Assembly (NCBI GenBank): GCA_002999035.1
Contig: CP027241.1
Span: 685,001-749,000 of the forward strand
DNA: 64,000 nt
From: Lachnospiraceae bacterium oral taxon 500
GTDB lineage: Bacteria > Bacillota > Clostridia > Lachnospirales > Vallitaleaceae
Reading direction: 5' to 3'
In this document: positions 2,714 through 60,536 of the stretch, in pieces
How the letters are laid out: each line of letters opens with the position of its first letter
Position numbering within the stretch: position 1 is the first letter of the stretch
Position numbers and translations under genes: made by a program
The notes under the pieces: model-generated
The model's database searches: none
What the model saw: the letters and a program-made list of their open reading frames with translations, nothing else
Told to the model about the DNA's origin: nothing

Positions 2714-3403
2714 TTATTCTCTTTCTTTCCGCTCGGAAAGCGAAACCTTGCCCAGCTTAAAATAACTTCTTTCCTGTCCGGCCTGCAGCGGATCGCCCTG
2801 AATCAGGATAAAAACACCCACCTCGGAATAATCACGGCCGAATAAGGTGGCTGTATGTTCCGGCAGCCGCAGCTCCCCGGTTTTAAGATAGGGCTGTAAG
2901 ATCCGCTCCAACGTTTGTTCCGGCCGCAGCCGGCGACTGCCCTCCGGCTGCTCTCTGTCCTCCGGCAAACTCAGATCTCGATAGGCAACCGCATCCTCTG
3001 ACTGCTCGATTTGATAAAACGGAACTTCCAGTCTTTCCTGCGTAATCTGATCATATAAAATTAAGCCGTCATAGGCGACAAAGCCAATCAGCCGGATCTG
3101 GCGGCTGAACTGTTCTACATCCGCATCCGTTCTCGCATTCAGTGCATACGCAAAGCTGCGGTTAATCGTCTCCCGGGTGGCCTGCTCGGCGATTTCAATC
3201 CGCTGAAGCTGCTTGGCATCATAAAAAAACGGACTATAAGTCTTTAAAGCAAATACTCCGTCCCGCATGGCTCTTGCAGCCGCATTTTCCACAATCATAT
3301 GGTTTCTCTCCGCCAAGCTGTACTGCCGAACCTGCACAAAAGAAATAAATAAAAACGGTAACAGAATTAACACCCCGATAACTCCGATTTTCAAGCTATT
3401 CAT
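2714..3403 (-). CDS. Single-pass membrane protein, Tad cluster A
   Basis: This 229-residue protein has one N-terminal hydrophobic segment (about residues 6-24, IGVIGVLILLPFLFISFV) and a long outward domain. That is the layout of TadE/TadG-like pseudopilins, though no family motif could be confirmed. Start 3403 is chosen because GGAGGG lies six bases upstream; the stop of the preceding gene overlaps it as TGATG, which implies translational coupling. It is the last gene of cluster A. The domain has an unusual number of charged residues and ends SERKERE. Function unknown; a minor pilin or assembly factor is inferred from position only. Confidence 0.75.
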   Translation of the reverse strand: MNSLKIGVIGVLILLPFLFISFVQVRQYSLAERNHMIVENAAARAMRDGVFALKTYSPFFYDAKQLQRIEIAEQATRETINRSFAYALNARTDADVEQFSRQIRLIGFVAYDGLILYDQITQERLEVPFYQIEQSEDAVAYRDLSLPEDREQPEGSRRLRPEQTLERILQPYLKTGELRLPEHTATLFGRDYSEVGVFILIQGDPLQAGQERSYFKLGKVSLSERKERE

Positions 3404-3903
3404 CACAATCCCTCCGCCCGAATCAGCCCACCGCTGCGGGTGACAATCGCCGCTCCCTCCTGCCGGAAACCCAAAACTGCTTTTAGCTGCTGAAACGGCG
3501 TTTTCGACGTATTTTCCACACTGATATAAAAGAAATCACCCAAATCCATCTTATATTTCCCATTCTCTTTGATTTGCCGGTAAATTTCCGCGTTATAATC
3601 CCCCTCGTAATAAATCTGCATTTCCTCTTCTGCTTCATTAGCCACATAACTTTTCCGCAAATGCGAAAGCGTAATCCGGTAAGACGCACCGGTCGCCCCC
3701 AAGAGCGCCTGCAAACCGGTCAGGGAACTTTCTTCAATATAGCCCAGTTCACAAATTAAATCAGCGGTTTTCTGCGTTTCCAGCCAAATCAACTGATAAT
3801 TGATATCCTCCTGCCGCTGGTACTGATAATAAACCGGCACCACAAACAGCAGCACCGTAATCATCAGCAGTGCCAGCAAGCGATCCAGCGCACTGATTAT
3901 CAT
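3403..3903 (-). CDS. Single-pass membrane protein, Tad cluster A
   Basis: This protein has 166 residues when read from the ATG at 3903. That start has GGAGGATAGAGGA in front of it and overlaps the upstream stop as ATGA. A hydrophobic helix covers about residues 8-26 (LLALLMITVLLFVVPVYY) and is followed by an outward domain of about 140 residues. It is the middle of three coupled genes of the same layout (3900-4292, 3403-3903, 2714-3403). No conserved family was recognised. The repeated layout of short cytoplasmic tip, one helix and outer domain suggests a set of minor pseudopilins for cluster A. Confidence 0.75.
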   Translation of the reverse strand: MIISALDRLLALLMITVLLFVVPVYYQYQRQEDINYQLIWLETQKTADLICELGYIEESSLTGLQALLGATGASYRITLSHLRKSYVANEAEEEMQIYYEGDYNAEIYRQIKENGKYKMDLGDFFYISVENTSKTPFQQLKAVLGFRQEGAAIVTRSGGLIRAEGL

Positions 3904-4292
3904 TCCTCTATCCTCCATTTGCCGTCCGACTGGTAAATTTGAAAGCGCCGCTTTTGCAGTTGTTCCTGCTGCCGCCGGTCAGCCAAAAAGGCATCCGCCT
4001 CCGGCAGTACCTTAACGCCTAAAACCTCCGCCCCAAACTCCGGCCAACGATACTCTTGACCGGCAAAACAAATGATTTCTTCTTTTTTTCCGGCTAAGAC
4101 TCCCAGCCGCGCCGCCAGCTCCAGCCCATCGCATTGATCGCGCAGCCGGGCATCCGGATTGATCTCGGCTGCCACTTCTTTGGTTTTAAGGAGTTCGGTC
4201 AGGCGATAGTTTTCATAAAGCTGCACGGATAGGGCAATCACCACCAGCAGTACGGCAATCGCCGTGTCCAGTAAGTCAAATATTTTCTCCAT
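3900..4292 (-). CDS. Single-pass membrane protein, Tad cluster A
   Basis: A 130-residue protein that begins MEKIFDLLDTAIAVLLVVIA, so the helix starts near residue 8. The frame extends four codons upstream to a TTG, but the AAAGG site touches that codon and fits the ATG at 4292 better. The N-terminus resembles that of TadE/TadG-like or holin-like small membrane proteins, without a recognisable pilin cleavage site. It is the first of three overlapping genes and is separated from the pilin-like gene at 4746 by about 450 bp of non-coding DNA, so it may have its own promoter. Function unknown. Confidence 0.7.
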   Translation of the reverse strand: MEKIFDLLDTAIAVLLVVIALSVQLYENYRLTELLKTKEVAAEINPDARLRDQCDGLELAARLGVLAGKKEEIICFAGQEYRWPEFGAEVLGVKVLPEADAFLADRRQQEQLQKRRFQIYQSDGKWRIEE

Positions 4293-4304
4293 TTCACGGC
4301 TCAA

Positions 4305-4745: not shown

Positions 4746-5228
4746 TTACTGCTGCTCAAACGTAATCCCCTTGATTACTTCATTTTTATCATACACTAAC
4801 TGTGCGTAAAAACTGGCGGTCGGATTGATATAAGCATTGTTTTTACTGTCGTTGGCCGCTTTGATTTGCTTATCAATATCGCCGCGGGATTTCTGGCTCA
4901 AATCACCAACCGTATTGTCCGCGGAAATACTGCCGCCGCTGACATAAACATTGGTACTGGCCTTCGTCTTAACGCTGATGATAAACTCACCGCTTTGATC
5001 GGCATAGAGTTTAATCGCGCTCAGCACGTCCGCCCCCGAGGTCTTAGCATTATTATACGGTGCAAAACTGGACTCGGCCAAGTCCTTGCTGACCTTATCC
5101 AACTGCTGACTGCTGGCCTCCGCCACTCCTCGTCCCTTGTTGTAAAGGCTAAGCCCCGTACTGACAATTCCGATAAAAAGTAAAATCCCCACTCCCAGCC
5201 ACAACGCCTTTTGAATATTTTGATCCAT
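4746..5228 (-). CDS. Pilin-like single-pass protein of Tad cluster A
   Basis: A 160-residue protein with an N-terminal helix (about residues 9-28, LWLGVGILLFIGIVSTGLSL) and a small, Ser/Thr/Asn-rich outward domain. The region after the helix (YNKGRGVAEASSQQLDKVSKDL) resembles small Tad-locus proteins of Clostridia that automatic pipelines often mislabel as permeases. The start at 5228 follows AAAGGAGGACAAA. It comes after the TadB/TadC-like gene. Size, helix position and polar outer domain make it the best major-subunit candidate of cluster A, but no prepilin cleavage motif is evident and no prepilin peptidase lies in the window. Confidence 0.7.
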   Translation of the reverse strand: MDQNIQKALWLGVGILLFIGIVSTGLSLYNKGRGVAEASSQQLDKVSKDLAESSFAPYNNAKTSGADVLSAIKLYADQSGEFIISVKTKASTNVYVSGGSISADNTVGDLSQKSRGDIDKQIKAANDSKNNAYINPTASFYAQLVYDKNEVIKGITFEQQ

Positions 5229-5343: not shown

Positions 5344-7233
5344 TCACAGCTGTTGATAAAACTGATTGAGGCTTTCCATGCCGCTGTAAATCATCGGAAT
5401 GATTAAATACAGCGCAATCAGCCCATAGGCCGGCAAAAAGCCAATCATTTCCCCCATCGCCAAGCGCTTGGCAATCATCTGCCGGTTAATTTCCTTGCGC
5501 CGCTCCAAATAATAAGCCTTTTCATGCACCAAATCATCAAATGCCTGCTGCAGCGACAAATCCTTGGCCGCCGCTTCCAGCTGCAAAACCAATGTTTGAA
5601 AATCCGCTTGTTTTTCCACCTTTAGCTCGGCAAAGGCCTCCTCTGCCCCCATGGAAAAATTATTCAAACACCGCTCAAACCTTTCCTCATAATAATGGGC
5701 AAACATATTCAGCCACGTTAAAATATCCTCCATCCCCAAGCGGGTATGATGCATCAACATCAATAAAATGCTGCGGTAGGCCGCCACTTCATCCTCTCTT
5801 TCCATTTCCCTGACTCGGCCGGCCAATGCATCCGCCAGCAAGTACCAATAGCCAAGTGCAAAAGACAGCGTCGCCAGCACCGCTATCTGCCACAGCTCCA
5901 GCCATGGTCGGTGCAGCTGCCGGTATTTTTCATATAATTGGTTGACATAGCGGTCTAAGCCCTTTCCCTGTAAGCCCGACAACTCCGGCAGCTTTTCCGC
6001 TTGCGCCCGCAGAACCGCTAAAACGGCCGCTTTTTTCAGCCGCGGATTCAGTCCGTCCAGCCACTCCGCTTCTTTTGCCCGCAGAACTTGACGATATTCT
6101 TCCCCGCCGCCAAAAAACATTGTGTTTTCCAAGACCGACGTCTGCCGGATACGATTATGCTCCTGCCAGTTAATGAAAAAAATAAGCAGCAGCCCGACGC
6201 CAAAGCTGATGAAGCGAATCCGCCGCTTACGCATCGGAATTTCCGTTTCCCGGCGCCGCTCCGCTCTTTCTTCGGAGATAATGCCGATATTTTGAATTTT
6301 CCGCAACATCATCACCACGGACAAAATCAAACAAAACATAACCAGCTCCGTTATCCGGCCGAAACGGCTTTGATAAAAGAGCCGGAGCGGCTCAAAATTG
6401 CGGCTGGCCCAATTTTGCAACGGCAGCATGCACAGCAGCGGCAAAACCGCAATAAAATGCAGGCTTTTCAGGGAATAATTCAGCCGCTCGCGCTTTAATT
6501 CCTCGACCCGCAGTTCATCCGTCAAATGGCTTAAACTGCCCATAAAAACGCTTTGTCCGTTCATCTGACTATCGCCGTATTCGGCAGTGATATAGCAAAG
6601 GTTAAGCAGCATTTTCAAATACTTATTCGGTGCCTGCTGATTATAACGGCGAACCGCTTCTTCCACATCGCTTTCCATCAGGACATCATACAAATATTCC
6701 CCCTGAATCAGCATCGGCGAGGTTTTATCCGGAAACTCCTGACAAGCCTCGTAAACAGCCTCCTCAACCGTCCCCTGCTCATAATATTTTTGCCGTACCA
6801 GCTCGTCAAATAAAATCTGGCCTTGCAGCAGCTGATTATGCCGCTTAACCAGCACATAATCAACAAACACCTCAATCAGAACCAGTATGACAAAAACATA
6901 CATCCCCAAATACACCAGGTTGCGGGTCAGGAATAAAAGACCGCTCAAAAGAATCAAAAACGCTAACATCAGCTTTCGAAAAAAATCACCGGTTTTTTCC
7001 AGCAAAGCCCCTTCCCGCAGCCGGGTCAATTGCTTCAGGCTATATTGATAGCGAAACAGGAGCGAGCGGCTGTAACGGAAGCGCCGCAAAAAGCGATAAA
7101 CCCGCAGGTTCATCGGATGCGGCAAATCACTTTGCGTTTTGGTTTTCGGCCGGCGCGGCCGCCGGCTGTACCATAGGGCGACAACAAATAAAATCAATGC
7201 CGCCGACCAAATGCTAATCTGTAAATTCTCCAT
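5344..7233 (-). CDS. TadB/TadC-like membrane platform protein, apparently fused
   Basis: The protein has 629 residues, about twice the length of TadB or TadC, with roughly eight hydrophobic segments in two groups. Residues about 90-130 and 290-325 flank a first cytoplasmic helical domain. Residues about 345-360, 460-485 and 600-625 flank a second one that ends MIGFLPAYGLIALYLIIPMIY, the terminal-helix style of T2SF proteins. This suggests one chain doing the work of both inner-membrane platform proteins. It overlaps the ATPase gene by 20 bp and starts after GGAGGATGATAAAA. Relation to T2SF is inferred from layout and context; sequence likeness is weak. Confidence 0.7.
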   Translation of the reverse strand: MENLQISIWSAALILFVVALWYSRRPRRPKTKTQSDLPHPMNLRVYRFLRRFRYSRSLLFRYQYSLKQLTRLREGALLEKTGDFFRKLMLAFLILLSGLLFLTRNLVYLGMYVFVILVLIEVFVDYVLVKRHNQLLQGQILFDELVRQKYYEQGTVEEAVYEACQEFPDKTSPMLIQGEYLYDVLMESDVEEAVRRYNQQAPNKYLKMLLNLCYITAEYGDSQMNGQSVFMGSLSHLTDELRVEELKRERLNYSLKSLHFIAVLPLLCMLPLQNWASRNFEPLRLFYQSRFGRITELVMFCLILSVVMMLRKIQNIGIISEERAERRRETEIPMRKRRIRFISFGVGLLLIFFINWQEHNRIRQTSVLENTMFFGGGEEYRQVLRAKEAEWLDGLNPRLKKAAVLAVLRAQAEKLPELSGLQGKGLDRYVNQLYEKYRQLHRPWLELWQIAVLATLSFALGYWYLLADALAGRVREMEREDEVAAYRSILLMLMHHTRLGMEDILTWLNMFAHYYEERFERCLNNFSMGAEEAFAELKVEKQADFQTLVLQLEAAAKDLSLQQAFDDLVHEKAYYLERRKEINRQMIAKRLAMGEMIGFLPAYGLIALYLIIPMIYSGMESLNQFYQQL

Positions 7234-9013
7234 TTTTTATCATCCTCCGGCACCCTTCCGTAAATAAAGCAAACTCCTCCTGATCTTCTGCCGTCATTGC
7301 GCGGCTCATGGCTTCCAGGTTTTTGGAAGTGGGCAAGTTTTTAAGTTCATAGCCGCCATTATGATAGACCATCATATCCTGCAGCCGGTAGCCCGTCTCT
7401 TGCGGGATAATCTCGGTAATTCTTTCCACATAGCGGTTGCCGGCATAGTCCTTGCCCAAATGAATATCAAATTGAATAACTTCGGTGACTTGCTCCTCGG
7501 CCACGACCTCATCCCGAAAAATATTGCACTTTAAAAGCGAATTGCGAAGCGACAGCACTAAATCGGCCGTAGTTTTGGCATGATGGGTAAACAAAGTGAA
7601 TAGAGAAGCCACCTGTGCGGTTTGCAGCATCAGCGCCGCCACCTCGTCGGTTGCGACCTCGCCTAAAATATTGACCGCGCCGTCGGTTTTTTTCTGCAAA
7701 TCAAGACCGGCCTGACCGGACACAAACTCGGTTTCCCGAAAGGTTAAAATATTGCGCATCGGATAGACTTTGCGCAGATGCAGCTCAAAGGCCATTTCCT
7801 GAATCCGCAGCGTCAGCGTGCCGTAAATATGCTTGATCAGCGCCATCAAAAGCGTTGTCTTACCGCTTCCCTGCGAGCCGGTAATCGCCATAATCCGGCC
7901 ACCCTTAACCAAATAGCGAAGCCAAGCCGCCAAGAGTTCTGCTCCCGGTCCGGCAAAAAGCTGATCGATCTCCAATTTTTTAATATGAAACTTACGGACG
8001 AAAAATGCCCAGCTCTCGGAAAACGGCGGCCGCACCACTACCACCCGCGAGCCGTCGCGCATATCATTGACCTTGTAGCCGATATTTTCCGACAGCTGCC
8101 CGGCCTTGTTATAGCGATAAATGTTTTGGCAGACCCGGCGCAGCTCTTTTTCCGACTGAAAACTCAAAAACGCCAGATGAATGGGCTTGCCCCGGAAGAA
8201 AATCCAAACGCTGTCATAGTTGCGGTAGGTCTGTTCCTTTAGCACATCATCCCTTTCCTGCCAAAAATAATTTTCCAGCTTCTGCTTGAACTCATTGCCG
8301 ACCTCTTCATTGATTTTGCCGGACACCCCGCCGGATACGCCGTCAATCGCCATATCGCGCAGCCGGTCAACCACACCGAAGCCTTTATAATAGCGGTAAA
8401 TCTTATGCGCCAGCAAAATACACTCTTCCTCATGACTCAGCTCGATGTTTTCGGCGGCGTAAATTGCTCGGATTTCTTCGACGGTGATAATATAGGACGG
8501 TGTTTCTCCGTTTTCAATCACATTTTTCGGCCGGTCTAACCGATATTTTTCAATCAGCACCTCCAGTCCTTTCTCCTGATGTTCCTGCTCATAGTGATAC
8601 AGCAAAATATCAAACATATCCTCCAGCGATAAGGCTTCCGCATCCTGATAAGGCACAATGGCATAAACCGCATCCCGGCTCGGCAGCAGGCGCAGAATAA
8701 TGTCCTTAATCATTTCAATCACATAGGTCTTATCGCTTCGATAGCCGTAACCGCACTGCTTCAGTGCGAGTTTTAAATGGCTGCACCGGCTCTTGGCTCG
8801 TTCGTACTCTTCGCTTTGCTCCTTATAGTCCAAATATTTTTTAGTTTCCTCGTATAATTCTTCCTTCACCAAAGCAAACAGGCGGTCAAAGCTGATTTCT
8901 TCCGCTCTTTTTTGATTTTGGCGCAGAAGCTTTCTTTTTTCATACTGAAAAACCCCCTGAAACAGCCCCGCTGCGGCCGCTGCCGCCAGTCCCGGCCATA
9001 AAGCCTCCATCAT
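7214..9013 (-). CDS. TadA/CpaF-like secretion ATPase, divergent
   Basis: The protein has 599 residues. The C-terminal half is a type II/IV secretion ATPase with Walker A TGSQGSGKTTLL near residue 376, an Asp-box-like RIQEMAFELHL, Walker B in NILGEVATDEV, and a His-box-like LFTLFTHHAKTTADL. The first 200 or so residues form an extra N-terminal region that starts with an Ala-rich hydrophobic stretch and continues with charged helices. Orthodox TadA (such as the 418-residue one at 39827) lacks this. The ATPase would power pilus assembly or secretion at the membrane. It overlaps the genes on both sides (ATGA upstream, 20 bp downstream), indicating tight coupling. Confidence 0.85.
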   Translation of the reverse strand: MMEALWPGLAAAAAAGLFQGVFQYEKRKLLRQNQKRAEEISFDRLFALVKEELYEETKKYLDYKEQSEEYERAKSRCSHLKLALKQCGYGYRSDKTYVIEMIKDIILRLLPSRDAVYAIVPYQDAEALSLEDMFDILLYHYEQEHQEKGLEVLIEKYRLDRPKNVIENGETPSYIITVEEIRAIYAAENIELSHEEECILLAHKIYRYYKGFGVVDRLRDMAIDGVSGGVSGKINEEVGNEFKQKLENYFWQERDDVLKEQTYRNYDSVWIFFRGKPIHLAFLSFQSEKELRRVCQNIYRYNKAGQLSENIGYKVNDMRDGSRVVVVRPPFSESWAFFVRKFHIKKLEIDQLFAGPGAELLAAWLRYLVKGGRIMAITGSQGSGKTTLLMALIKHIYGTLTLRIQEMAFELHLRKVYPMRNILTFRETEFVSGQAGLDLQKKTDGAVNILGEVATDEVAALMLQTAQVASLFTLFTHHAKTTADLVLSLRNSLLKCNIFRDEVVAEEQVTEVIQFDIHLGKDYAGNRYVERITEIIPQETGYRLQDMMVYHNGGYELKNLPTSKNLEAMSRAMTAEDQEEFALFTEGCRRMIKNGEFTD

Positions 9014-9732
9014 TTCCGCCGCTCCTCCCCTCCGCCGACAAACTTGGCAAACTGCCTGTATTCCGTTTCCCAGTTACCGTACTTTCGTTTGACATAATCC
9101 AGCAGACTGCCTTCATTCAGCGCATCAAAGAGCTCATAGGAAAAGGACAGACTTAAAACATCGGCCGCCGCAATCTCTTTGGCCAAACGCTTTTTCGTCC
9201 AGCGGCTGTCCGAAAAATATTGGCCGAAGAGCAGAAGCGGAAGCCGCCCTCGTTCAAAACTGAGGCTCCGCCCCTGCAGAGCTTCCCTAATCGCCGCCGG
9301 TGACTGCGGCAGGCAAAGGACTAATTTATCCACGCTCCGGCTCATTTCGATTTCCCGGCTCAAATCAGCAAAGACATAGCCGTAGCCCTCACCGGCCTTT
9401 TCCAGCAAATACTCATACAAAACCTGCTTATATTCGCCTTCCTTGCTGTCAACAAAAGAAGCATCCAAATAATCAAGACCCTTCATTAACGGCAAACTGT
9501 AATCTTTGAGCAGCTGCGTAGTCAGCTGACCGTTGACCGCCAGCCGGAGCAAATCCGCTCTTTTTTTGTCTGCGTCCTCCAGGGTCAAGCCCAAATAATA
9601 ATCCGCCTTGACCGGACGGCGGCTGATCAGCAAATGCTGTTTTTCGCTGTACTGGGCAAAGATCCCCGCCATAAAACATAATTGACTGGTCAGCTTTCCC
9701 CGGCCGGTAATGTCCGCCCATCCGATAATCAT
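9010..9732 (-). CDS. MinD/TadZ-like protein with atypical P-loop
   Basis: A 240-residue protein. Its opening, MIIGWADITGRGKLTSQ, followed by an amphipathic helix, has the layout of the deviant Walker A of MinD/ParA proteins, with GK and T kept but the GGxGKTT pattern lost. YGYVFADLS near residue 120 sits where the Walker B strand (DYVIIDL) belongs, and LVLCLPQSP matches the following strand. The family assignment rests on this order of elements. The start overlaps the preceding stop (ATGA) and lies behind GGAGG. TadZ-like proteins locate Tad machines at poles; whether this one binds nucleotide is unclear. Confidence 0.6.
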   Translation of the reverse strand: MIIGWADITGRGKLTSQLCFMAGIFAQYSEKQHLLISRRPVKADYYLGLTLEDADKKRADLLRLAVNGQLTTQLLKDYSLPLMKGLDYLDASFVDSKEGEYKQVLYEYLLEKAGEGYGYVFADLSREIEMSRSVDKLVLCLPQSPAAIREALQGRSLSFERGRLPLLLFGQYFSDSRWTKKRLAKEIAAADVLSLSFSYELFDALNEGSLLDYVKRKYGNWETEYRQFAKFVGGGEERRK

Positions 9733-10322
9733 GGCCGCAGCCTCCTTTCCTGACCAAAATATTTTTTGCTTTGCCTCGGCAGTGCACCGGCCACTTGCCC
9801 CAAAAGACGCAGCAGCGCATTTTTATAGTCACCGGAAAGCGGCTCCAACTGATAATAACCGTCAAACAAAGCCTCATCGGCAAGCAGCTTATCAATCTTA
9901 TCCCATTCCACCGTCAGCAGCTCAAACTTAGTGTTTTCCGATTTTTCCGCAATTTGCTTGCTTAAATACTTTTGGTTGAGTGCCGATTCGTGGATATGGC
10001 TGCCGTAAACAACGGTAATTTTTTCCGGCTTTTCTCTTGCCAGATATTCTAAAAACGCCTGAATCTCCGGCCGATACGGCGTCAGATAACAAACCGTCTG
10101 CTCCGCCTGCACGACCGGAAGTTCCGTCTCCACCAGGCACTGCTCCTGTCCGCGGTAATCCCGAAGCGGATAAACGGTCAACGCATCGGTATAATCTTCT
10201 GCCTGCCCGGCATAATGCTCGGAATACATTTCATATTTGCCGTAATGAATGGCCGCCAGCGTCGCCAGACTATACACAAATTGTCTTTTGGCAGCGGAAT
10301 CTTGTCCCAATATTTGCATCAT
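9729..10322 (-). CDS. Unknown cytoplasmic protein of Tad cluster A
   Basis: The ATG pair at 10322 is preferred as start (197 residues) because AAGGAGAGG precedes it; a longer frame reaches back into the CpaB-like gene but has no ribosome site. No known domain was recognised. The N-terminus (MMQILGQDSAAKRQFVYSLA) has a loop-then-helix layout that could be a fully eroded P-loop like those of its neighbours, but this is speculative. VVYGSHIH near residue 110 suggests a Rossmann-type strand. It lies 10 bp after the CpaB-like gene and overlaps the next gene, so it belongs to the same transcript. Confidence 0.65.
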   Translation of the reverse strand: MMQILGQDSAAKRQFVYSLATLAAIHYGKYEMYSEHYAGQAEDYTDALTVYPLRDYRGQEQCLVETELPVVQAEQTVCYLTPYRPEIQAFLEYLAREKPEKITVVYGSHIHESALNQKYLSKQIAEKSENTKFELLTVEWDKIDKLLADEALFDGYYQLEPLSGDYKNALLRLLGQVAGALPRQSKKYFGQERRLRP

Positions 10323-10332: not shown

Positions 10333-11328
10333 TTAAAAGCTTTTTTCTTTGTCGGCGGCAGTTGAATTATTGTTTTCCGGCTGAGCGGGGGCGGTTTCCC
10401 TGTCCGCTGCCGGCGTCTGCTCACTCACGTCGGCCGGTTCGGCTTTGTTCCTATCTGCTTCGGAAAAGCTTTGTAAGTTTTTGTCCCGGCTGTCTGCCGC
10501 TTCTTTTTCTCTCAATACTCCCGCTTCAGCCGGCTGCTCCTGACCGATTCGTTCCTGCATTTTTAAAAACTTTTCTTCTGCTTTCAGCTGGGTCAAAGCC
10601 GCTTCCAGCCGGTTTCTCTCCTGTCCGACAATGGCACTTTGCGCCACATCCTCGTATAAAGGCTGAACCGAGCCACTGACCGGATAACGGACAATGGTAT
10701 CCGGCATATCAACGGCTTTGGGATAAATGGTTAAATACAAATATGCTCTCTCATAGGTTTGAACATCAATTTGGGCGCTGCCCAGCCGAACCCTTTCTTC
10801 CTCCGTTAAGCCCAGTACAATTTTCTTTTTATCCGCATCCAGTCCGCCGGCCTGTTTATGCGACAGTACGCAGTAATCATGACCGCTGGGAAACAGAATC
10901 CTGACATCAACATAATCGCCCGGCAAAAGTTCAGCCGGAAGCTCGGACACTTCCACCTCCTGCGTATTTTGCCAAAACTCCAAATTGGTTTCATAAAAAA
11001 ATTCTGGCTGTAACATTACCCGCGGTTTTAAGGCCACCCAGGTCTTACGGCCGATTACTTCCTCCGGCAGGGTAAAGACTCCGGCCGGAACCGCATCCTC
11101 TTCCACTTCCATTTCCGCTAAATCCGCTTCTGCAATCACTTCACCCAATTCTATCGGCCGACTGACGGTCAGCACCGTGCACCGCACTGCCGGCAAAAGC
11201 TTGTCGGTGCTGGCTGCCTGCCAGTACTGATAGCCAAAACTCCCGCCGGCACCAATCACAATTCCTAAAACAACCAAACCTACTGTTTTTAACGCGCTCC
11301 GAATCATCCCCATCTTCCGCAATGTCAT
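10333..11328 (-). CDS. CpaB/RcpC-like SAF-domain pilus assembly protein
   Basis: The protein has 331 residues. A membrane helix (about residues 14-34, TVGLVVLGIVIGAGGSFGY) is followed by a SAF domain (about 47-115: CTVLTVSRPIELGEVIAEADL, then FTLPEEVIGRKTWVALKP). After that comes an RcpC-type region with LPGDYVDVRILFPSG. The last 100 residues are a charged coiled coil and a low-complexity Pro/Glu/Asn tail. CpaB/RcpC proteins act in the periplasm or outer zone of Tad machines. This is the only CpaB homologue in the window, so cluster B may rely on it. The start at 11328 has GGAGGGATAAGGGC upstream. Confidence 0.8.
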   Translation of the reverse strand: MTLRKMGMIRSALKTVGLVVLGIVIGAGGSFGYQYWQAASTDKLLPAVRCTVLTVSRPIELGEVIAEADLAEMEVEEDAVPAGVFTLPEEVIGRKTWVALKPRVMLQPEFFYETNLEFWQNTQEVEVSELPAELLPGDYVDVRILFPSGHDYCVLSHKQAGGLDADKKKIVLGLTEEERVRLGSAQIDVQTYERAYLYLTIYPKAVDMPDTIVRYPVSGSVQPLYEDVAQSAIVGQERNRLEAALTQLKAEEKFLKMQERIGQEQPAEAGVLREKEAADSRDKNLQSFSEADRNKAEPADVSEQTPAADRETAPAQPENNNSTAADKEKSF

Positions 11329-11482: not shown

Positions 11483-12076
11483 TTACTGAAATATTTTCCA
11501 CACCCACTCCCGCTCTTCTTTTTTGGAAGCAAAGGGATCTTTCCAAAAAGGAAAGGCATAAATCCCGCCCTGATATTTTTTACGGAAAAAGGCCAATTCT
11601 TCCGGTGTCCCGAAATTAACCATTACCTTTAGCCGCGAACCAACCGCCTCTTCCAGCTTTTTTATCTCGGTCAGCGCCCGGGCGGCTTTCCATTCGCTGC
11701 CGCTGACAATCAGGAGCGGATAATCGGCCTCGGCAAAATAGGCATTGGCATGACTGCCGATATCGGCAATCACAAAATCATAATTTTCCTTTTTTAGGCT
11801 GGCCAGTCCCTTTTCCTGATAACTTTTGTAATAATCCACCCGCCGAATACGAAAGACCTGCTTGTTTTTATCCTCGTAGCCAAAACCGGCAAATATCTTT
11901 TCAATCTCCTCCAACTCCCGGTGCGAGTTCCATTCAATCAGCGCCACTCGCCCGCCGCTTAGCGCCAAAGCATTCGCCAGGCACAAACTGATATGGGTTG
12001 CTCCCAAGCCCCGATCAATCGTTCTGACCGCAATGGTTTTGACAATCCGGTTTTGCTTTTTCTCCTGCCCAAACAT
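11483..12076 (-). CDS. TadZ/CpaE-like protein with degenerate P-loop
   Basis: A 197-residue protein shaped like a short MinD/TadZ ATPase. After a basic tip comes VRTIDRGLGATHISLCLANA near residues 17-37: the canonical KGGVGKTT is replaced by DRGLGATHI, so the P-loop lysine is missing. VALIEWNSH follows where MinD has its VLLIDLD strand, and FVIADIGSHANAYF sits at the Walker B position. Loss of the catalytic Lys is known for TadZ-like proteins, which act as polar markers and not as ATPases. The start at 12076 follows AAAGGAGA. It lies between the kinase fusion and the CpaB gene. Confidence 0.75.
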   Translation of the reverse strand: MFGQEKKQNRIVKTIAVRTIDRGLGATHISLCLANALALSGGRVALIEWNSHRELEEIEKIFAGFGYEDKNKQVFRIRRVDYYKSYQEKGLASLKKENYDFVIADIGSHANAYFAEADYPLLIVSGSEWKAARALTEIKKLEEAVGSRLKVMVNFGTPEELAFFRKKYQGGIYAFPFWKDPFASKKEEREWVWKIFQ

Positions 12077-12274: not shown

Positions 12275-13684
12275 TTATTTTTGGGGATTGAACCAAACTA
12301 TCCCCTGTATTTTGGTCCTTATCTTATCAAAAATGGGCGCCGCCTCCGCCTGCTGCTTTTCCTCCTGTCCGCTCTCAGCAAAGGCGCGCATACTTTTTTG
12401 ATAAGGAAACAGTTCAAACCTTGTGTCCGGATACTCGCACTTTAACTCGGCTAAGCGGCTCTCATCCGCCAAGTTTAAAATAAAGCAGCCATCAATCAGT
12501 TTTTCATTAAAAATCACTTCATCTAAATCGACCATATCCCAAGCGGCACCGGCCACGACAAATCGAAGCTGTTCCTGAAACGGCCGCAGGATTTTGCGCT
12601 TCTCTTGAGTCAAAAGTCCGTAATCAATGAAAATCCGGTCGTATTCCTGCCATTTCAGCGGTAGCCTGTTATCCTTATTGCCTGGAAAAATCTCCAGGTC
12701 GTTAAGCATAAAGGAATCCTTTTTTACCTGCACTTCCGAGGAAGTATAAACTAATTTGGCAATCTGCTGGCTTTCACTCCAGTCCAATAAAGCTGTTTTT
12801 CCGCCTTCAGCCGCCGCCCGAAAGGCATGAGCACAGGCAACAAAGCTCGTGCCCACTCCCCGCCGAATGCCCAAATACACTTCGGCCTGCTCCGGCAGCG
12901 TCGCCGGCCCTGCTTCCTTTTGCTGCAATTCCTTTAACTGTCCGCAGATTTCGCTGAAACTGTCCGGTCGCCTCTCCCGCTGCGGTTCGCTGCAGCGATA
13001 AATCAGCGCAATTAAGTCCTCGGCATAGAACTTACTCCAATTTTCCGGCTCCAGCCGCTTGTAGGGCGGATCACTGATTTTATGGCGGCTGATTAAATAA
13101 TATAAGGTCATGCCGTAAGCATAAATATCCGATTTTTCATCACTGCGCAGCACCCCAAACTGTTCCGGCGCAGCGTAAGCCTTTGTGCCCAAGAAAAGTG
13201 TGTCTTTTTTCCTTTCCGGTGTGGCATAACGGGCGATACCAAAATCAATTAAAAACAGGTTCTGATTTTGATCCAAAATAATATTTTCCGGCTTTAAATC
13301 CCGGTAAATAATCGGATTTTCCAGCCCTTCATGCAGATAGCGCAAAACCTCCGCCAGCTGTTCGGCAACCCGCAGTACCTCGGCTTCTTCTATTCTTTCC
13401 TTGCCGGCCGCCCATTCTTCCAAGTTTTGCCCCTCGGCATACTCGCGAATTAAAAAAATAAAGTCATCATCCTCAAGCACATCAATAATTTTGGGGATAT
13501 TGGCATGCGACAGCTCCTTTAAAATGTCCACTTCCGCCAACTGAAAGTTTTCCTGTTTTTTCATCTGCTTGATAATCCGCTTGCTATGTAAGCTTTGATT
13601 TTCCGTCAAATAGACCGTATTGTTTTCGCTTTGATGCAAACATTCCAAAATTAGGTATTTCCCGCAAATTATCTGTCTTTCCAT
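12275..13684 (-). CDS. Ser/Thr protein kinase fused to a degenerate TadZ/MinD-like domain
   Basis: The protein has 469 residues from the ATG at 13684; a start three codons upstream is possible but lies too close to the AGGAG site. Residues about 5-255 form a Hanks-type kinase with Lys39, Glu in EVDILKEL, YRDLKPEN at 127-134 (Tyr for His), DFG at 147-149 and APE at 172-174, so catalysis looks intact. From about 268 a second domain starts LGIRRGVGTSFVACAHAF, a MinD-like P-loop with Thr in place of Lys, followed by TALLDWSES and YDRIFIDYG. It is the first gene of cluster A, directly behind the shared promoter. It may phosphorylate pilus components and be localised by its own TadZ-like tail. Confidence 0.85.
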   Translation of the reverse strand: MERQIICGKYLILECLHQSENNTVYLTENQSLHSKRIIKQMKKQENFQLAEVDILKELSHANIPKIIDVLEDDDFIFLIREYAEGQNLEEWAAGKERIEEAEVLRVAEQLAEVLRYLHEGLENPIIYRDLKPENIILDQNQNLFLIDFGIARYATPERKKDTLFLGTKAYAAPEQFGVLRSDEKSDIYAYGMTLYYLISRHKISDPPYKRLEPENWSKFYAEDLIALIYRCSEPQRERRPDSFSEICGQLKELQQKEAGPATLPEQAEVYLGIRRGVGTSFVACAHAFRAAAEGGKTALLDWSESQQIAKLVYTSSEVQVKKDSFMLNDLEIFPGNKDNRLPLKWQEYDRIFIDYGLLTQEKRKILRPFQEQLRFVVAGAAWDMVDLDEVIFNEKLIDGCFILNLADESRLAELKCEYPDTRFELFPYQKSMRAFAESGQEEKQQAEAAPIFDKIRTKIQGIVWFNPQK

Positions 13685-13762
13685 TCCGCCCATTCTCCTA
13701 ATTGATTTAATTCAAAATCCCTAACTTATAATCTTATTACCTTATTATTTTATCGCTTTTTT

Positions 13763-36180: not shown

Positions 36181-36777
36181 TTATCCGTTCCCACCATCCC
36201 CCGCCTGCCTGACTGCCGCCAAATAATCCCGCAGCACCAGTTCCCGCTCTTCCTTCATCATTTCCATTTGCAGAAAGAGCCGTGCCTGTTTTTGAAAGAG
36301 TTTTCTAAAAAAATCCAAATCTTGCAAGCCGTCTTTATCCCTAAGTGGTAAATAGCAAAACCGCCATTCGCCGCTTTCCGGAAAATAGGCTGCCGCGCCT
36401 GGCCCGATTTGCAGTCCTTCGGTTGTTAACAGGTATTCCGGTAAAGTTCGCTCCAATTCCAGAAGCTGACGAACATAGGCTTCCGGCTGCTCCATTACCT
36501 GTCTTTCACCAAGCTCTGCCGCCGTAAGGTCAAAATCTAAAATTGCCTGCCCGCCCTGCCAATGAAGCACCGGCCTGTGCAAGCCTTTAATATCACAGTA
36601 TTGCAGCATTTTCAGTTCATATTCTTTCAGTTCCGTCCGGGCAAAGCAAAAGCGCTTCACTTTCCGTCCTCCGCAGTTCAAAAGTATTTCACCTGATTTC
36701 GGCCAAATCAGTGGTTCTCTTTTCTCTTCGTTTCTATTCTCTGTTTTTTCCTCTGCCTTCCCCTCTGTCCGGTTCAT
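36181..36777 (-). CDS. DUF6382-like protein of Tad cluster B
   Basis: A 198-residue protein. After a charged tip, residues about 30-190 resemble the DUF6382 domain found at the N-terminus of FHA proteins in clostridial Tad loci (YELKMLQYCDIKGLHRPVLHW, AILDFDLT, LLTTEGLQIGPGAAAYFPESGEWRFCYLPL). No FHA domain follows, so it is a short form. A full version would read Thr-phosphorylation signals, which is notable because cluster A encodes a Ser/Thr kinase. The start at 36777 follows AAGGAGG. It is the last gene of cluster B. Confidence 0.65.
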   Translation of the reverse strand: MNRTEGKAEEKTENRNEEKREPLIWPKSGEILLNCGGRKVKRFCFARTELKEYELKMLQYCDIKGLHRPVLHWQGGQAILDFDLTAAELGERQVMEQPEAYVRQLLELERTLPEYLLTTEGLQIGPGAAAYFPESGEWRFCYLPLRDKDGLQDLDFFRKLFQKQARLFLQMEMMKEERELVLRDYLAAVRQAGDGGNG

Positions 36778-41201: not shown

Positions 41202-42125
41202 CTATCTTTTATCCTCCGGCAGCGATGCGCCCGGTGCAGTCCCTTGTCTAATCACATTTAAAATCTCCGACAGCGCCCCTTCCTCGCTGACCGCCACATA
41301 GTCAAACCTCACCGCTGCTGCAAACTGCTTCCATTTCTCAGCTAAACGCTTGACCACAAACAGCCTTTCCTTTTCCTCCAGCGGCAAACACCAGTTAAGC
41401 AGCCCGGACGAGGATAAGTCAAACACAATCTGCTGATAACCGCCCTGCTTCAAAATCCGCATAAAATCCTGTTTTTCTCCCGTCCGCAGCACTGCCAAAT
41501 CCTCCGGCTTAGCCGGCCCGTGCAAAATGTCCAGCCCGCCCTCATGCAGACAAAAGTCGCGAACATTGACCTGCCCCAGTGTTTTCCAATAGAACAAAAA
41601 ATCCGACAGCCGAAACGGAATAAATTCCCGGCTGAAGTTTTGATAAGCGTCAAAGGAAATCAGCAGTGTCTTCCGGCGCCGGCTAAGTTCTTTGGCCAGC
41701 CGGTAAGCCAAGTCCGACACACCAATCCCGCCAAAGGGCGAATACAAATAACTCCGTTCCGGCTCGTCTGTTCCGCTCACCGGCGCTTCCACCAGCCCCA
41801 GCTGATAGAGCCGCTCCGTCAGACATTTGCAAATCTCACTTAACGGCTGGTAACAAAAGCATTCGCCTTCCTCTTGGGTTGGTGTTTGCCTCATTTTCAG
41901 CGTATTCTTTTGCTGATGCAAACTTTCCGCCATTCCTCTTTGCTCATCCGGCTCAGCCGGCAGCAGCCAAATCGCTTTTTCGGCTGGTTTCACCGGCAGC
42001 ATTCCACCGCTCTCACAGCTATGAACTTCCCAGCCGCTGCTGCGCCAAGCCAGCCCCTCCGCTAATTTTTCCTGATATTCCCGGTCGTTTAAGGCTAAAT
42101 AAATCAGAATCATATTCCACCCCAT
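41202..42125 (-). CDS. TadZ/CpaE-like protein with degenerate P-loop
   Basis: A 307-residue protein. An N-terminal receiver-like region (residues 1-110) is followed by a MinD-like domain starting LYSPFGGIGVSDLAYRLAKEL near residue 127. The canonical GGVGKTT is GGIGVSD, so the P-loop Lys is lost while the GG-x-G frame is kept. TLLISFDAYQ and YQQIVFDLSSSG fill the next two strand positions. This matches TadZ polar-marker proteins. It is the first gene of cluster B, behind the shared promoter. Confidence 0.82.
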   Translation of the reverse strand: MGWNMILIYLALNDREYQEKLAEGLAWRSSGWEVHSCESGGMLPVKPAEKAIWLLPAEPDEQRGMAESLHQQKNTLKMRQTPTQEEGECFCYQPLSEICKCLTERLYQLGLVEAPVSGTDEPERSYLYSPFGGIGVSDLAYRLAKELSRRRKTLLISFDAYQNFSREFIPFRLSDFLFYWKTLGQVNVRDFCLHEGGLDILHGPAKPEDLAVLRTGEKQDFMRILKQGGYQQIVFDLSSSGLLNWCLPLEEKERLFVVKRLAEKWKQFAAAVRFDYVAVSEEGALSEILNVIRQGTAPGASLPEDKR

Positions 42126-51289: not shown

Positions 51290-54200
51290 TTACCGTTCCA
51301 GCTTTTGCGCCCGCACAATAATCGCAGCAATTTCCGCTCTGGTAATGAAAGCTTGCGGCTGAAGCAGGCCATTGTCCCGCCCCTGATAAATGCCGGCTGC
51401 CACTGCCCACTGCATTGCCTCCTGTGCCCAAGCGCTGATTTGGTCAGCGTCTTTGAAAGTCATTTCAGCTTTGGCACTTTGCGACATTTTCCGAGAATAA
51501 TAGCGATACAGGAGCACTGCAACTTCTTCCCGGGTAATGGCTGCGCTTGGTTGGTCGCCGTCACTCCGGCCCTGAATAATCTGATTAGCAGCCGCCCAAT
51601 TCATGGCCGGCTGATACCAGACGGCATTCTCCGTTTTCTGCATCTGCTCCTGTCCAGCCATTCGATATAAAATCTGGACAAACATCGCCCGAGTTCCCGT
51701 CTCCTGCGGCTGAAAATGATTATCCGTCATTCCCTGCATCAAGCCCAGCTGCTGCACCATTTTAACATCGGCATAAAACCAATCCTGCGGCTGCACATCC
51801 TTAAATCCGGCAGTATCGGCCGGCCCGGCCGGAACTTTGGTTTCTTCCGGTAAAATAGTCGGTTTATCCGGTGCCGCATTCACCGCTGCTGTCTCTGATG
51901 TACTCGGAACATACGGCGCAAGCGCATTAAAGTCCTCGGCAACAACAAACTCGCCAAAGCTGTCAATCTCCGCACGGAGGAAACGTTCCAGCCGGTCAAC
52001 AGCCAATTCTTTATACCGGCCGTTTTCCTGCTGATAAAGTTTAACATTTTTTCCCTCGGCTGTCAGTGGCAGTTCTACCACTAAAGTCATCGGGTGATAG
52101 GGTCTCTCCAGCGGTCGGCTTTCTTCCTCAGCCGATACGCTGAAGCGACGGACAGCGGCGTTCGTCTGGCTTTCATTGACCTTCAAAACAAAGGCATGAT
52201 TCTCATTGCTGCCATTTAAAAGGCCTTCCAGCCTTTGAACTTCAATCTTACCATCGGTATTCTTCTGATAATCCAAATCAACCTTGCAAAACCGGGCCGG
52301 ATCAGCGGTCAGCTGTTTAATCGTGTCATTTTCATCATGGGTAAAAACCCACACCTTTTGGCTCGGTAAAGTTTCCTTGAATACATTTTTACCCAAAACA
52401 ACACTGCCCGGCAGATAAATAGACTTCAGCTTCTGACCATAGCTGAAACCCTCCTCACCGATACTTTGCAGGCTTTGCGGCAGTTCTAAATGTTCCAATT
52501 CATAGCAGGCACCAAATCCTTGGTCGCCGATGGACAACAGTTGTTTTTCCGGCAGATACAATTCTTTTAAGCTCTTACAGAAAGAGGCGCCGCATTTGTT
52601 AATTTCCTTTAAATTGCGGGGCAAAATCAAATGTTCCATCTCATCATTACCGGCAACGGCATATTCTTCAATTTTTTCAATCTTCTCGGGTACTACCAGC
52701 TGCTTAATTTTTTCCAATTCATACAATGCCAGTTTGCCGATGTATTCAAGGTCTTTGGGAATGTTAATCTCTTTCAATTCCTCGCAGCCCAAGAAAGCAA
52801 ACGGCTCAATCCGGCGCAGGCTTTGCGGCAGGTTAATTTCCTCCAGCGCAAAGCAATTTTGAAAAGCGCTCACACCCACGATTTTCACACCTTCCGGCAA
52901 AACTACTTTTTCCAGACGCATATGTGTCTTGCCGGCTCGTTCGCCAATTATTTCCGTTCCGGCTTTGACGCTGACCTGAGCTAAACCCTGTGGAATATAA
53001 ACCAAGGTTTGACCTTCATAAACCAAACCGTCTTCGCTGTAAAATCTGGAGTTTCCCGGGGCAATATTAATCGCCTGCAATTTTACTGTTGAATCATTGT
53101 CAAAGCTTTCAAACAAATCCGCTAAGGTATCTGCTTTAAACTCAGTAAAGGTTGACGGCAGCGTTATCTCCGTCATGCTGTCCATGCCTAAAAAAGCCTG
53201 GTTGCCAATCGTAGTTATGCCTTCGGGCAAAGTTAATTTTTCTATTTTCAGACAGCTTTTGAATGCACTTTCTTCAATTTCTGTCAGTTTTTGATTCCAC
53301 TCAATCGACTCCAATCCGCGGCATCCTAAGAAAGCCGCCTTTCCTATCTTCGTACATTCTGCAGGAATAACGATTTGCCGCAAGCTAAAACAATTGCTGC
53401 ACATATTTTCCGGAATGGCCGATAGTTGCCGAGATAATGTCAATGTTTGCAGCGAACCCATTCTTTCCAAAGCCGACTTACCCAAAACCGTTACACTGTC
53501 TGGCAGGTGCAGCTCAGTTAACTGCTCACAGCCGAAAAAAACCGCTTCGTCGATTTCCTGCAAACCCTGGTTAAAGACGATTTCCCGCAGGGCGATGCAG
53601 TTTTTGAAAGCCTCTTTTTCCAGTTTCGTTATATTGGCACCCAGCGTCAACTTGGTAATCTTACTGTTTCCCCGAAAGGCATTGGCCGCCAACGCCGTAA
53701 CCGCTCTGCCGTCAACCTCATCGGGCAAAACAATCTCGGTATCGTGTCCGTAATATTTAACCAAACGGCCGGCCGCATCTACCTTAAATAAGTTGCCGCC
53801 GCCGACAACATCAATATCCAAAACCGCCAGCCGTTGATCGGCATGGAATACTAAAATCTTGGTTTCCCCGACCTTATGCGCGGTCACCTTGCCGTCTGCC
53901 GTGACCTCGGCAATCTGCGGCTCAAGCGATAGATAATTAACCGTGCCAAAAGTAATGGCCGCCGGCGAAGCCGTCAGTTCAATCTGATATTCTTCGTCCG
54001 GGCTTAATGCCTTTTCGGTTTCATCCAGTTTAAAAATATCAAAACTTTCAAAGCTTTCTTTATTGGCAAACTTTAACTTGGTGTTATTGTTTTTATCATA
54101 AATTTTCTGATAAATTTCCTGAATCGTTGACGGCTCGCCGCCGTAATAAACGATTGACATCTGATCGGTTGGGTTGGCGCCGATGACTGCAGCGTCATTT

Positions 54201-54832
54201 TCAAACAAGAGCCATTGAAAGGGACTGCCATTATCACCGGCAAAACTGGAACCCACCTCGGCCACACTGGCTGGTACCCGCAAACCCTGTAATTGATAGC
54301 AAGTTTCAAAGGCACTGGCACCAATACTCTCCAATCCTTGGTTTAAATGCACTGCCTTAATTTTGCTGTTATAGTAGGCACTCTTTCCAATTCGCTTCAA
54401 ACTGGCTGGCATTTCGGCAAAAACAATGCCGCTGGAAAGAAAAGCTTTGTCGCCGATGCCCTCTAAGCCTTCCGGTAAAGCCATATATTTCAGTTTTTTG
54501 CAGCCGCTGAAAGCCTTCTGGCCAATCTGCTGCAACCCACTACCGGCAAATGTTATCCGCTCCAACCCGGTACATTTTTCAAAGGCCGACTCTCCAATTT
54601 CTTTAACACTGCTTGGGATTTGCACCGAAATAATCTGCTTGTTTTTAAACGCGGCCGGTCCAATCTTTTCTACTCCATCCGGCACAACTATGTTTTGATC
54701 GGTGCCATGATAAGCAACCAAAACATTATCCTCTATTTCAAAGTCTTCCGCCGCCTTTACCGGAAACCCCAAACTAAATAACATCGTCAAGGTAACGACA
54801 GCTGCTATGTATTTTCTTACTCTGTTATGCAT
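51290..54832 (-). CDS. BspA-like leucine-rich repeat surface protein with SLH anchor
   Basis: The protein has 1180 residues from the ATG at 54832, behind GGGAGGAATC. The signal peptide ends near VKAAEDF. LRR_5 (BspA-type) repeats fill about 40-220 and 370-870 (pattern IGxxAFxxCxxLxxIxLPxxL). Between them, about 285-350, is a Big_2-like Ig domain. A further segment without repeats (about 870-1000) precedes three SLH motifs (GFKDVQPQDWFYADV, AVWYQPAMNWAAANQII, TFKDADQISAWAQEAMQWAVAAGI) that hold the protein to cell-wall polymer. BspA-type repeats often bind host or partner surfaces. A Fur-type box at its promoter implies iron control. Confidence 0.93.
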   Translation of the reverse strand: MHNRVRKYIAAVVTLTMLFSLGFPVKAAEDFEIEDNVLVAYHGTDQNIVVPDGVEKIGPAAFKNKQIISVQIPSSVKEIGESAFEKCTGLERITFAGSGLQQIGQKAFSGCKKLKYMALPEGLEGIGDKAFLSSGIVFAEMPASLKRIGKSAYYNSKIKAVHLNQGLESIGASAFETCYQLQGLRVPASVAEVGSSFAGDNGSPFQWLLFENDAAVIGANPTDQMSIVYYGGEPSTIQEIYQKIYDKNNNTKLKFANKESFESFDIFKLDETEKALSPDEEYQIELTASPAAITFGTVNYLSLEPQIAEVTADGKVTAHKVGETKILVFHADQRLAVLDIDVVGGGNLFKVDAAGRLVKYYGHDTEIVLPDEVDGRAVTALAANAFRGNSKITKLTLGANITKLEKEAFKNCIALREIVFNQGLQEIDEAVFFGCEQLTELHLPDSVTVLGKSALERMGSLQTLTLSRQLSAIPENMCSNCFSLRQIVIPAECTKIGKAAFLGCRGLESIEWNQKLTEIEESAFKSCLKIEKLTLPEGITTIGNQAFLGMDSMTEITLPSTFTEFKADTLADLFESFDNDSTVKLQAINIAPGNSRFYSEDGLVYEGQTLVYIPQGLAQVSVKAGTEIIGERAGKTHMRLEKVVLPEGVKIVGVSAFQNCFALEEINLPQSLRRIEPFAFLGCEELKEINIPKDLEYIGKLALYELEKIKQLVVPEKIEKIEEYAVAGNDEMEHLILPRNLKEINKCGASFCKSLKELYLPEKQLLSIGDQGFGACYELEHLELPQSLQSIGEEGFSYGQKLKSIYLPGSVVLGKNVFKETLPSQKVWVFTHDENDTIKQLTADPARFCKVDLDYQKNTDGKIEVQRLEGLLNGSNENHAFVLKVNESQTNAAVRRFSVSAEEESRPLERPYHPMTLVVELPLTAEGKNVKLYQQENGRYKELAVDRLERFLRAEIDSFGEFVVAEDFNALAPYVPSTSETAAVNAAPDKPTILPEETKVPAGPADTAGFKDVQPQDWFYADVKMVQQLGLMQGMTDNHFQPQETGTRAMFVQILYRMAGQEQMQKTENAVWYQPAMNWAAANQIIQGRSDGDQPSAAITREEVAVLLYRYYSRKMSQSAKAEMTFKDADQISAWAQEAMQWAVAAGIYQGRDNGLLQPQAFITRAEIAAIIVRAQKLER

Positions 54833-55022
54833 ACTGATTCCTCCCATTGCTAAAATGTTCCCTTTGATGCCGCTGATCGCCGCATCGTAAAACCCTTTAT
54901 TATTGCTGGGCTTTACTGGCTAAAGTCCAACCCGAAATGAAACTTGATTTTTCCTCCTTTCCTCTTCCGCGTAAAATAAATAGGAAAAACCTATGTTTTC
55001 CCGTTTAAAATCCGTTTTTATT

Positions 55023-55043
55023 CGATAATAATAATTATTATCG
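55023..55043 (-). promoter_or_regulatory. Fur-type box before the LRR/SLH gene
   Basis: A perfect palindrome with 10-bp arms CGATAATAAT and ATTATTATCG around one A. It agrees closely with the GATAATnATTATC core of Fur sites. It covers the expected transcription start. Confidence 0.7.
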
Positions 55044-55049
55044 TTTAAA

Positions 55050-55077
55050 ATGATAGCACTTATTTATATTTTGTCAA
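55050..55077 (-). promoter_or_regulatory. Sigma-A promoter of the LRR/SLH gene
   Basis: TTGACA (55077-55072), a 16-base spacer and TATCAT (55055-55050) with an upstream TGC. The leader to the start codon is about 210 bases, in which I see no known riboswitch. Confidence 0.8.
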
Positions 55078-55266
55078 TAGACTTTAATTTATTTTTTATC
55101 ATTTTTTCGACATACTATATCTGATTTTTCTTTTTACAGCTATTCGCTAAAGTTGATTAGAGCTTGACGTACCAGTCGAAAAAATCATTGACTTTATCTG
55201 TTTTCATTCGCAGGTACTGTTTGACGAAGATCAGCCTGCCTTGGCCAGAAAATGCCGTTATCGCAT

Positions 55267-55310
55267 AAAAAGCGTTCCGACCAACCGATTGGCTGACCTG
55301 AACGCTTTTT
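55267..55310 (-). terminator. Intrinsic terminator of the nine-repeat LPXTG gene
   Basis: AAAAAGCGTTC (55267-55277) pairs with GAACGCTTTTT (55300-55310); the loop holds CCAACCGATTGG. It is a near copy of the terminator at 51140-51185. Confidence 0.85.
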
Positions 55311-55314
55311 ATTT

Positions 55315-55583
55315 TTTGTTTTTATGCTTCTGCGTTTTCCGCTTTCGCATTTTAAGTTCTGCAATTTTAGTTTCTGCGTTTCCGCTTGCGGTCACATTCC
55401 CGCTGTCGTACCTTTCTACCAGCGTTTCCGTCCGCATTTCCGCTTCCGCATCCTCACATTAGCGGTTCTGCCTTTGTTTCGCTGTTCTTACTTGCGCTTC
55501 CCATCAGCGTTTTCGCTTGTGTTTCAGCGGTTCTTGCGGTTCTACTTGTGTTTCTATGCTTTACCGTTTCCGCTTGTGTTCCG
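55315..55583 (-). other. Low-complexity 3' trailer of the LPXTG gene
   Basis: About 270 bp between stop codon and terminator consist of imperfect units such as TTTCCGCTT, TTCTGCG and GTTTCTG (plus strand). A shorter trailer of the same kind (51190-51285) follows the LRR/SLH gene. No convincing gene is present; frames here overlap the end of the surface protein gene. Confidence 0.6.
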
Positions 55584-60098: not shown

Positions 60099-60242
60099 TT
60101 TACACTCCTTTTGCTCTTTATCTTTGTTTTTGCGTTCCCTGTTTTTCCGGGACGTCTTAGGATTTTCCTTATGATTCCTATTTATCCCGAAAAATACAAT
60201 CCCTCAACCTCCACGCCTTTTGACATCTACATCCTTGTAGTG

Positions 60243-60248
60243 ATTATA
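60243..60248 (-). promoter_or_regulatory. Probable -10 of the nine-repeat LPXTG gene
   Basis: TATAAT preceded by TGA (extended -10) on the minus strand, about 145 bases before the ATG. No good -35 is visible, and the leader contains the small hairpin CTACA-AGGA-TGTAG. Confidence 0.5.
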
Positions 60249-60490
60249 TCATATTATCGGCTTGGAATCCACTTAATTTTATGGGATTTTAGACCTATTT
60301 CCCGACCGGGCAAATTCATAATCCATGCAACTCCGCTGTTTAAAGCAAATTGTAAAAAACGGAAAATTTTTTTTCTTTCGTTTTTTTAATATTTTTTTAT
60401 ATTTTCTTTGCATTCCGATTTTTTTTCGGACGCAATCACCGTTTCTAAACCGTCCGTACATGCTTCCGTATCTCCACAGCATATACACGC
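60249..60490. other. Non-coding gap between the two LPXTG genes
   Basis: AT-rich DNA with long T/A runs around 60370-60430. I see no gene or clear regulatory site apart from the flanking -10 and terminator. Confidence 0.6.
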
Positions 60491-60536
60491 ATAAAAAGCA
60501 GCGGCCCGGCAAAATCCGCAGAGCGCTGCTTTTTAT
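60491..60536 (-). terminator. Intrinsic terminator of the second LPXTG gene
   Basis: ATAAAAAGCAGC and GCTGCTTTTTAT form a 12-bp stem around a GC-rich loop, about 80 bp past the stop of the gene at 60616. Confidence 0.85.

Follow-up and report, generated by a model that had tools for sequence, protein, structure and literature searches.

A Ser/Thr kinase fused to a ParA/MinD-fold domain probably serves a Tad-like (type IVc) pilus machine of Clostridia as its TadZ-like assembly-site protein, with the kinase replacing a receiver domain. The protein, here called KIN, is encoded in the window, the 64,000-nucleotide stretch of Lachnospiraceae bacterium oral taxon 500 DNA that we analyzed, and a kinase held at the pilus machine is the most economical reading of it. 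The conservation of its kinase residues, the fold of its C-terminal domain (KIN-C), the lysine-less loop of that domain, the conserved operon and the co-inheritance with MD1, a stand-alone KIN-C paralogue, were all computed. To our knowledge, little is known of how the Tad pili of Gram-positive bacteria are positioned and switched; if the proposal is true, a kinase joined to a TadZ-like hub would link Ser/Thr phosphorylation directly to pilus assembly.

12275..13684, minus strand: KIN, first gene of cluster A, a Ser/Thr kinase joined to a domain of ParA/MinD/TadZ fold
12929..13669, minus strand: kinase domain of KIN, about residues 9-255 of the 472-aa frame (PF00069 and homologue alignments)
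13283..13306, minus strand: catalytic loop YRDLKPEN of KIN
12275..12895, minus strand: KIN-C, C-terminal ParA/MinD-fold domain (AF2 and structural alignment)
12845..12871, minus strand: lysine-less Walker-A-like loop GIRRGVGTS of KIN

The frame of KIN spans 12275..13693 (472 aa) or, from the second ATG, 12275..13684 (469 aa), both on the minus strand; a better-spaced AGGAG favors the second ATG (13684) as the start. The open reading frame that the earlier note had placed at 12275-13684 is real, but holds only on the minus strand, and the possibility that it is a chance frame was rejected. A promoter scan returned no more sites than in shuffled sequence. Pfam Pkinase (PF00069) matches KIN at E 4e-39 (match 27-208), and K39, the alpha-C Glu, YRDLKPEN, DFG and APE are all present, the class being that of Hanks-type Ser/Thr kinases. 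In an alignment of 34 homologues, the K, E, D, D and E of these motifs are invariant. Across 68 homologues, the HRD-Asp and the DFG-Asp are each found in 68 of 68, the lysine in 64 (4 gapped) and the alpha-C Glu in 65 (3 gapped). The Gly-rich loop reads LHQSENNTV, free of glycine and so unlike GxGxxG. Hence, the description of the kinase as apparently active agrees with its catalytic motifs but requires a caveat for this loop.

The 206 C-terminal residues have no Pfam match of their own. A profile of KIN-C built from 34 homologues matches ParA/MinD structures (3k9g, E 3e-8), and the AlphaFold (AF2) model of KIN-C (pLDDT 89.8, pTM 0.82) has the ParA/MinD fold, bearing out the fold that had been proposed. 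Structural alignment (VIA-align) matched KIN-C to 3cwq ParA with Z 13.7, to FlhG with Z 13.2 and to Eubacterium rectale TadZ (ErTadZ, 3fkq) with Z 12.9 (rmsd 3.0 over 168 residues, identity 17%). ParA, FlhG, FleN, HypB and TadZ differ by no more than about 1 Z unit, too little to set TadZ apart, and the tied scores support membership of the ParA/MinD superfamily only. The label "TadZ-like" for KIN-C rests on operon and loop, not on structure.

In the loop GIRRGVGTS, the position of the P-loop lysine is occupied by Thr, just as the earlier note had read it, and the two lysines of a deviant Walker A motif are missing. ErTadZ reads PCGGVGTST at the same position, GVGTS being common to both. The P-loop lysine is found in 1 of the 68 kinase-fusion homologues (L128) and in none of 45 stand-alone paralogues of KIN-C. 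Judged from these alignments, its absence is a property of the family and not a defect of the window's copy. The L128 protein (L128:8448-10247) is a distant kinase fusion whose ParA/MinD-like domain retains a GKT loop and matches CbiA, which suggests that the lysine may have been lost after a fusion. By the account of papers citing its structure (PMC13170226, PMC6668835), ErTadZ has an atypical Walker A, yet binds ATP, dimerizes and shows low ATPase activity. Since GVGTS is shared with this ATP-binding protein, KIN-C need not be dead; lysine loss is a known TadZ condition, and "P-loop-less" does not hold up as a special feature.

Could KIN nevertheless be a relic, with a pseudokinase and a dead ATPase retained as a structural scaffold only? 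Besides the P-loop lysine missing from all but one homologue, the degenerate Gly-rich loop, seen in the window's genus and in g7, would fit such a relic, as would the change of the Mg-binding Asn to His in 12 Lachnospiraceae-like kinase fusions (L095, L161, L167, L168, L170-L173, L175-L178), which form a single tree clade and all come from genomes lacking the pilus motor. However, deeply diverged homologues keep Lys, Glu, HRD-Asp and DFG-Asp, the alignment shows the Gly-rich loop intact in most relatives, and the P-loop has the variant form known from a TadZ that binds ATP. We consider a relic very unlikely.

The claim that the kinase fusion heads cluster A was correct: it is the first gene of a conserved Tad-like operon. 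In most genomes read from the window's family (f1), the order is KIN, MD1, CpaB, X231, X240, TadA, TadB/C, a pilin-like gene and small membrane genes. In the window, the genes after KIN are these:

11483..12076, minus strand: MD1, stand-alone KIN-C paralogue, P-loop lysine absent (GLGATH) (HHalign)
10333..11328, minus strand: CpaB/RcpC-like SAF-domain protein (SAF E 1.9e-6)
9729..10322, minus strand: X231, third ParA/MinD-fold protein (AF2 and structural alignment)
9010..9732, minus strand: X240, fourth ParA/MinD-like protein, lysine-less loop (HHalign)
7214..9013, minus strand: divergent TadA-type motor ATPase (TIGR03819, PF00437)
5344..7233, minus strand: TadB/TadC-like platform protein, single long gene (assigned from its place in the operon and its conservation beside TadA)
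4746..5228, minus strand: putative pilin-like protein with hydrophobic N-terminus (operon conservation)
2714..4304, minus strand: P134, P171 and P230, small membrane-anchored genes at the operon end, putatively pseudopilin-like (conservation)

The operon has the TadA-type motor, platform and pilin-like genes of a Tad/type IVc locus, platform and pilin being assigned by position and conservation. The TadA gene matches TIGR03819 at E 6e-11, below the curated cut-off, and PF00437 at E 8e-6; the CpaB gene matches TIGR03177 (pilus_cpaB) at E 3e-9, again under the curated cut-off. The platform gene gave no Pfam match and the pilin-like protein no real one. Within cluster A, no prepilin peptidase was recognized and the operon holds no FHA partner.

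Four proteins or domains of ParA/MinD fold are encoded by the cluster A operon (KIN-C, MD1, X231 and X240). MD1 aligns to KIN-C with an HHalign E of 8.7e-37, and X240 to MD1 with a probability of 96.6 (E 5e-10); relatives of X240 have the loop GQTGTTS, and one of them has weak MipZ/AAA_31 matches. X231 is weak by profile (probability 46), and its AF2 model (pLDDT 88) has the ParA/MinD fold, with Z 15.0 to ParA 3cwq. Among 22 homologues of X231, just one G and one K are invariant, in the Walker-A spacing GxxxxxK, the rest of the loop being lost. This invariant lysine of X231 is missing from KIN-C, MD1 and X240.

How widely is the fusion distributed? We read 68 homologues that join a kinase to a ParA/MinD domain, and they fall into eight families of the class: f1, f4, f6 and f22 in the order, and f31, f50, f76 and f92 elsewhere in the class (the label Lachnospiraceae-like for f6 is a guess based on gene content and the size of the family). 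Kinase and pilus genes share one conserved operon in many f1 genomes, in f4 and in f31, another family of the class, where the operon is the same as in f1 but without MD1. Found across so many related bacteria, the fusion looks like a standard part of one type of Tad-like machine and not an oddity; the idea that KIN is unique to one genome was rejected. A scan of genome contigs with the whole kinase fusion returned cyanobacterial kinases only, and a plasmid search gave one match, of kinase only. The earlier note had known of no described protein with this architecture, and we too found no description of a kinase-TadZ fusion or of Tad kinases in Clostridia in the open-access literature, an absence that is no proof of novelty. 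The architecture is nonetheless not unique: what is new is apparently an undescribed family rather than a single protein. The same note had set two outcomes against its proposal, a widespread family with this architecture and a C-terminal fold unrelated to MinD/TadZ: the family is indeed widespread, while the fold is related.

KIN occurs together with a stand-alone KIN-C paralogue, and in several genomes lacking that paralogue the kinase is joined to the MD1 lineage instead. In a tree of 119 domains, the kinase-fused label needs 6 changes, at least 4 of them forced by well-supported branches. The kinase-fused domain of L069-L071 lies inside the MD1 group, those loci having no separate MD1, and that of f31 lies at the base of the same group. 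With the kinase joined to two domain lineages and at least four changes of label, we conclude that the fusion formed or was rearranged on more than one occasion.

TadZ usually bears an N-terminal atypical receiver domain. In one genome (G035, L156), a 350-aa protein ahead of CpaB, at the exact position of the kinase gene, carries a C-terminal domain related to KIN-C behind a non-kinase N-terminus, and the same combination occurs in L082, L159 and L160. On visual inspection and in analogy to TadZ, these four N-termini are apparently receiver-like; a Pfam search with them gave no receiver match. A swap of kinase and receiver-like domain at one position suggests that the TadZ-like hub may be a general port for signals. 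The A-type Tad operons of L082, L159 and L160 have neighbors that resemble a type VII secretion locus (EssC-like, WXG100-like), a setting to compare with the T7SSg/h loci of PMC11217815.

In f6, the kinase has a locus apart from the pilus operon:

L084-L095, L126, L161-L180: mecA / kinase-MinD / MinD-like / GH18 / amidase locus, mostly without pilus motor

At this fixed locus, mecA (PF05389, E 1e-69) is divergent beside KIN-MD1, a GH18-SH3 gene comes after the pair on the same strand in nearly all cases and an amidase gene is often present. The motor block, scored by an A-type TadB/C gene, is present in 8 of the 31 f6 genomes with the KIN-MD1 pair, elsewhere than at the kinase locus, and absent in 23 of them (at least 23 such genomes). 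Because these 23 genomes keep KIN-MD1 without the type A motor, the pair cannot serve the type-A pilus alone. All 23 retain other T2SSE-family ATPases of TadA size, so the pair may be tied to a canonical Tad system. Survival of the pair without a motor, beside wall hydrolases, would hint at a broader role.

These genomes bear on the main rival to an assembly-site protein, namely that KIN-MD1 is primarily an envelope or wall regulator that positions the kinase at a wall-remodeling site, either recruited by the pilus operon or left where pilus genes were lost, with pilus control being secondary. The mecA, GH18-SH3 and amidase neighbors and the 23 motor-less genomes would be explained by such an origin, and G024 unites both layouts (mecA-KIN-MD1-CpaB-pilus genes-GH18-amidase). 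However, kinase and pilus genes share one operon in f1, f4 and f31, and the f1 and f31 operons have no GH18. Moreover, CpaB at the f6 kinase locus tracks the motor, being present in 5 of 8 genomes with the motor block versus 0 of 23 without it (Fisher p 3e-4, indicative as the genomes are related). The separate motor locus has no CpaB of its own in G374, G350 and G288, where its 5' part was seen; in G253 and G355, whose kinase locus has none, the gene is at the motor locus; G369 has no CpaB at the kinase locus, and its motor contig is cut. Finally, the Mg-binding Asn was lost solely within motor-less genomes, in the single clade described above. A wall-regulator origin thus seems to us unlikely, if still the strongest competitor.

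We favor the assembly-site reading on the basis of the conserved operon shared by kinase and pilus genes, the ErTadZ-like loop and the ParA/MinD fold, together with the conserved catalytic residues, the repeated making or rearrangement of the fusion, the non-kinase N-terminus on a related domain at the kinase gene's position and the tracking of the motor block by CpaB. Against it stand the tied structure scores, the degenerate Gly-rich loop, the motor-less genomes, the His-for-Asn clade and the lack of an FHA partner in the operon. If KIN is an assembly-site protein, KIN-C would bind nucleotide, pair with itself or with MD1 and dock beside the TadA/CpaF motor, as modeled for CpaE/TadZ; in Caulobacter, CpaE dimers are modeled around the motor CpaF (PMC13170226). 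Docking would thereby keep the kinase in place at the machine, and there it might phosphorylate a machine or envelope protein and so switch assembly on or off. A more elaborate arrangement, which we think improbable, would have the four ParA/MinD-fold members, one of them bearing the kinase, assemble around TadA as a mixed ring or as heterodimers that share nucleotide sites, the state of assembly directly gating phosphorylation.

Dimerization activates PASTA kinases. The ParA/MinD domain might accordingly be no locator but the kinase's own switch, a nucleotide-driven dimer of KIN-C with itself or MD1 activating the paired kinases. The kinase and KIN-C are directly linked in one chain, MD1 could act as a competing half-dimer, and ParA/MinD proteins and ErTadZ dimerize upon ATP (PMC13170226). 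A switch alone does not explain the fixed pilus context, however, and we consider this reading improbable; it is compatible with an assembly-site protein rather than opposed to it.

Among known systems, TadZ/CpaE (ErTadZ) shares with KIN the ParA/MinD fold, the lysine-less GVGTS loop and the company of TadA, TadB/C and CpaB genes. KIN differs in having a kinase where TadZ has its atypical receiver, in a sequence identity of just 17% and in an operon that holds further ParA/MinD-fold proteins. The MinD/ParA/FlhG/FleN ATPases share the fold (3k9g profile E 3e-8, Z 12-13.7), but KIN-C has neither P-loop lysine and is fused to a kinase. PknB/PrkC Hanks-type kinases resemble KIN in kinase domain and catalytic residues, whereas KIN has a soluble C-terminal ParA/MinD domain and no PASTA match (114 bits against PknB_PASTA, cut-off 450 bits). 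T7SSc-j loci, some of them beside Tad genes, contain kinase/phosphatase/FHA sets, DUF6382-FHA proteins and TadZ-like receivers, so that there too Ser/Thr phosphorylation proteins are encoded with envelope machines; their kinases, by contrast, are membrane proteins with other C-termini, and the accessible text reports no kinase-MinD fusion (PMC11217815).

The window's genome has three Tad-type loci: A (the operon headed by KIN), B (window 36-42 kb) and C (3.05-3.08 Mb).

G000:C1:3055705-3077504 (L138, L144): locus C, with kinase, PP2C, DUF6382+FHA protein and likely prepilin peptidase

The DUF6382 gene of cluster B (36181-36777, 198 aa) had been put forward as a phospho-signaling partner of KIN. 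It belongs to the second Tad locus, and its product gave no FHA match. The genome's only FHA domain is in locus C, about 2.3 Mb away, in the set with DUF6382, PP2C and kinase. A phospho-chain from A to B is therefore not supported, and DUF6382/FHA was rejected as a KIN partner. The likely prepilin peptidase of locus C, picked out by eye, lies at 3061655-3062191 of the genome. The TadZ-like gene of cluster B (41202-42125) also lacks the P-loop lysine (SPFGGIGVS), and a PDB search with its protein gave no match. Farther along the window, 51290-63999 holds three very long minus-strand open reading frames of 1185, 1504 and at least 1112 aa.
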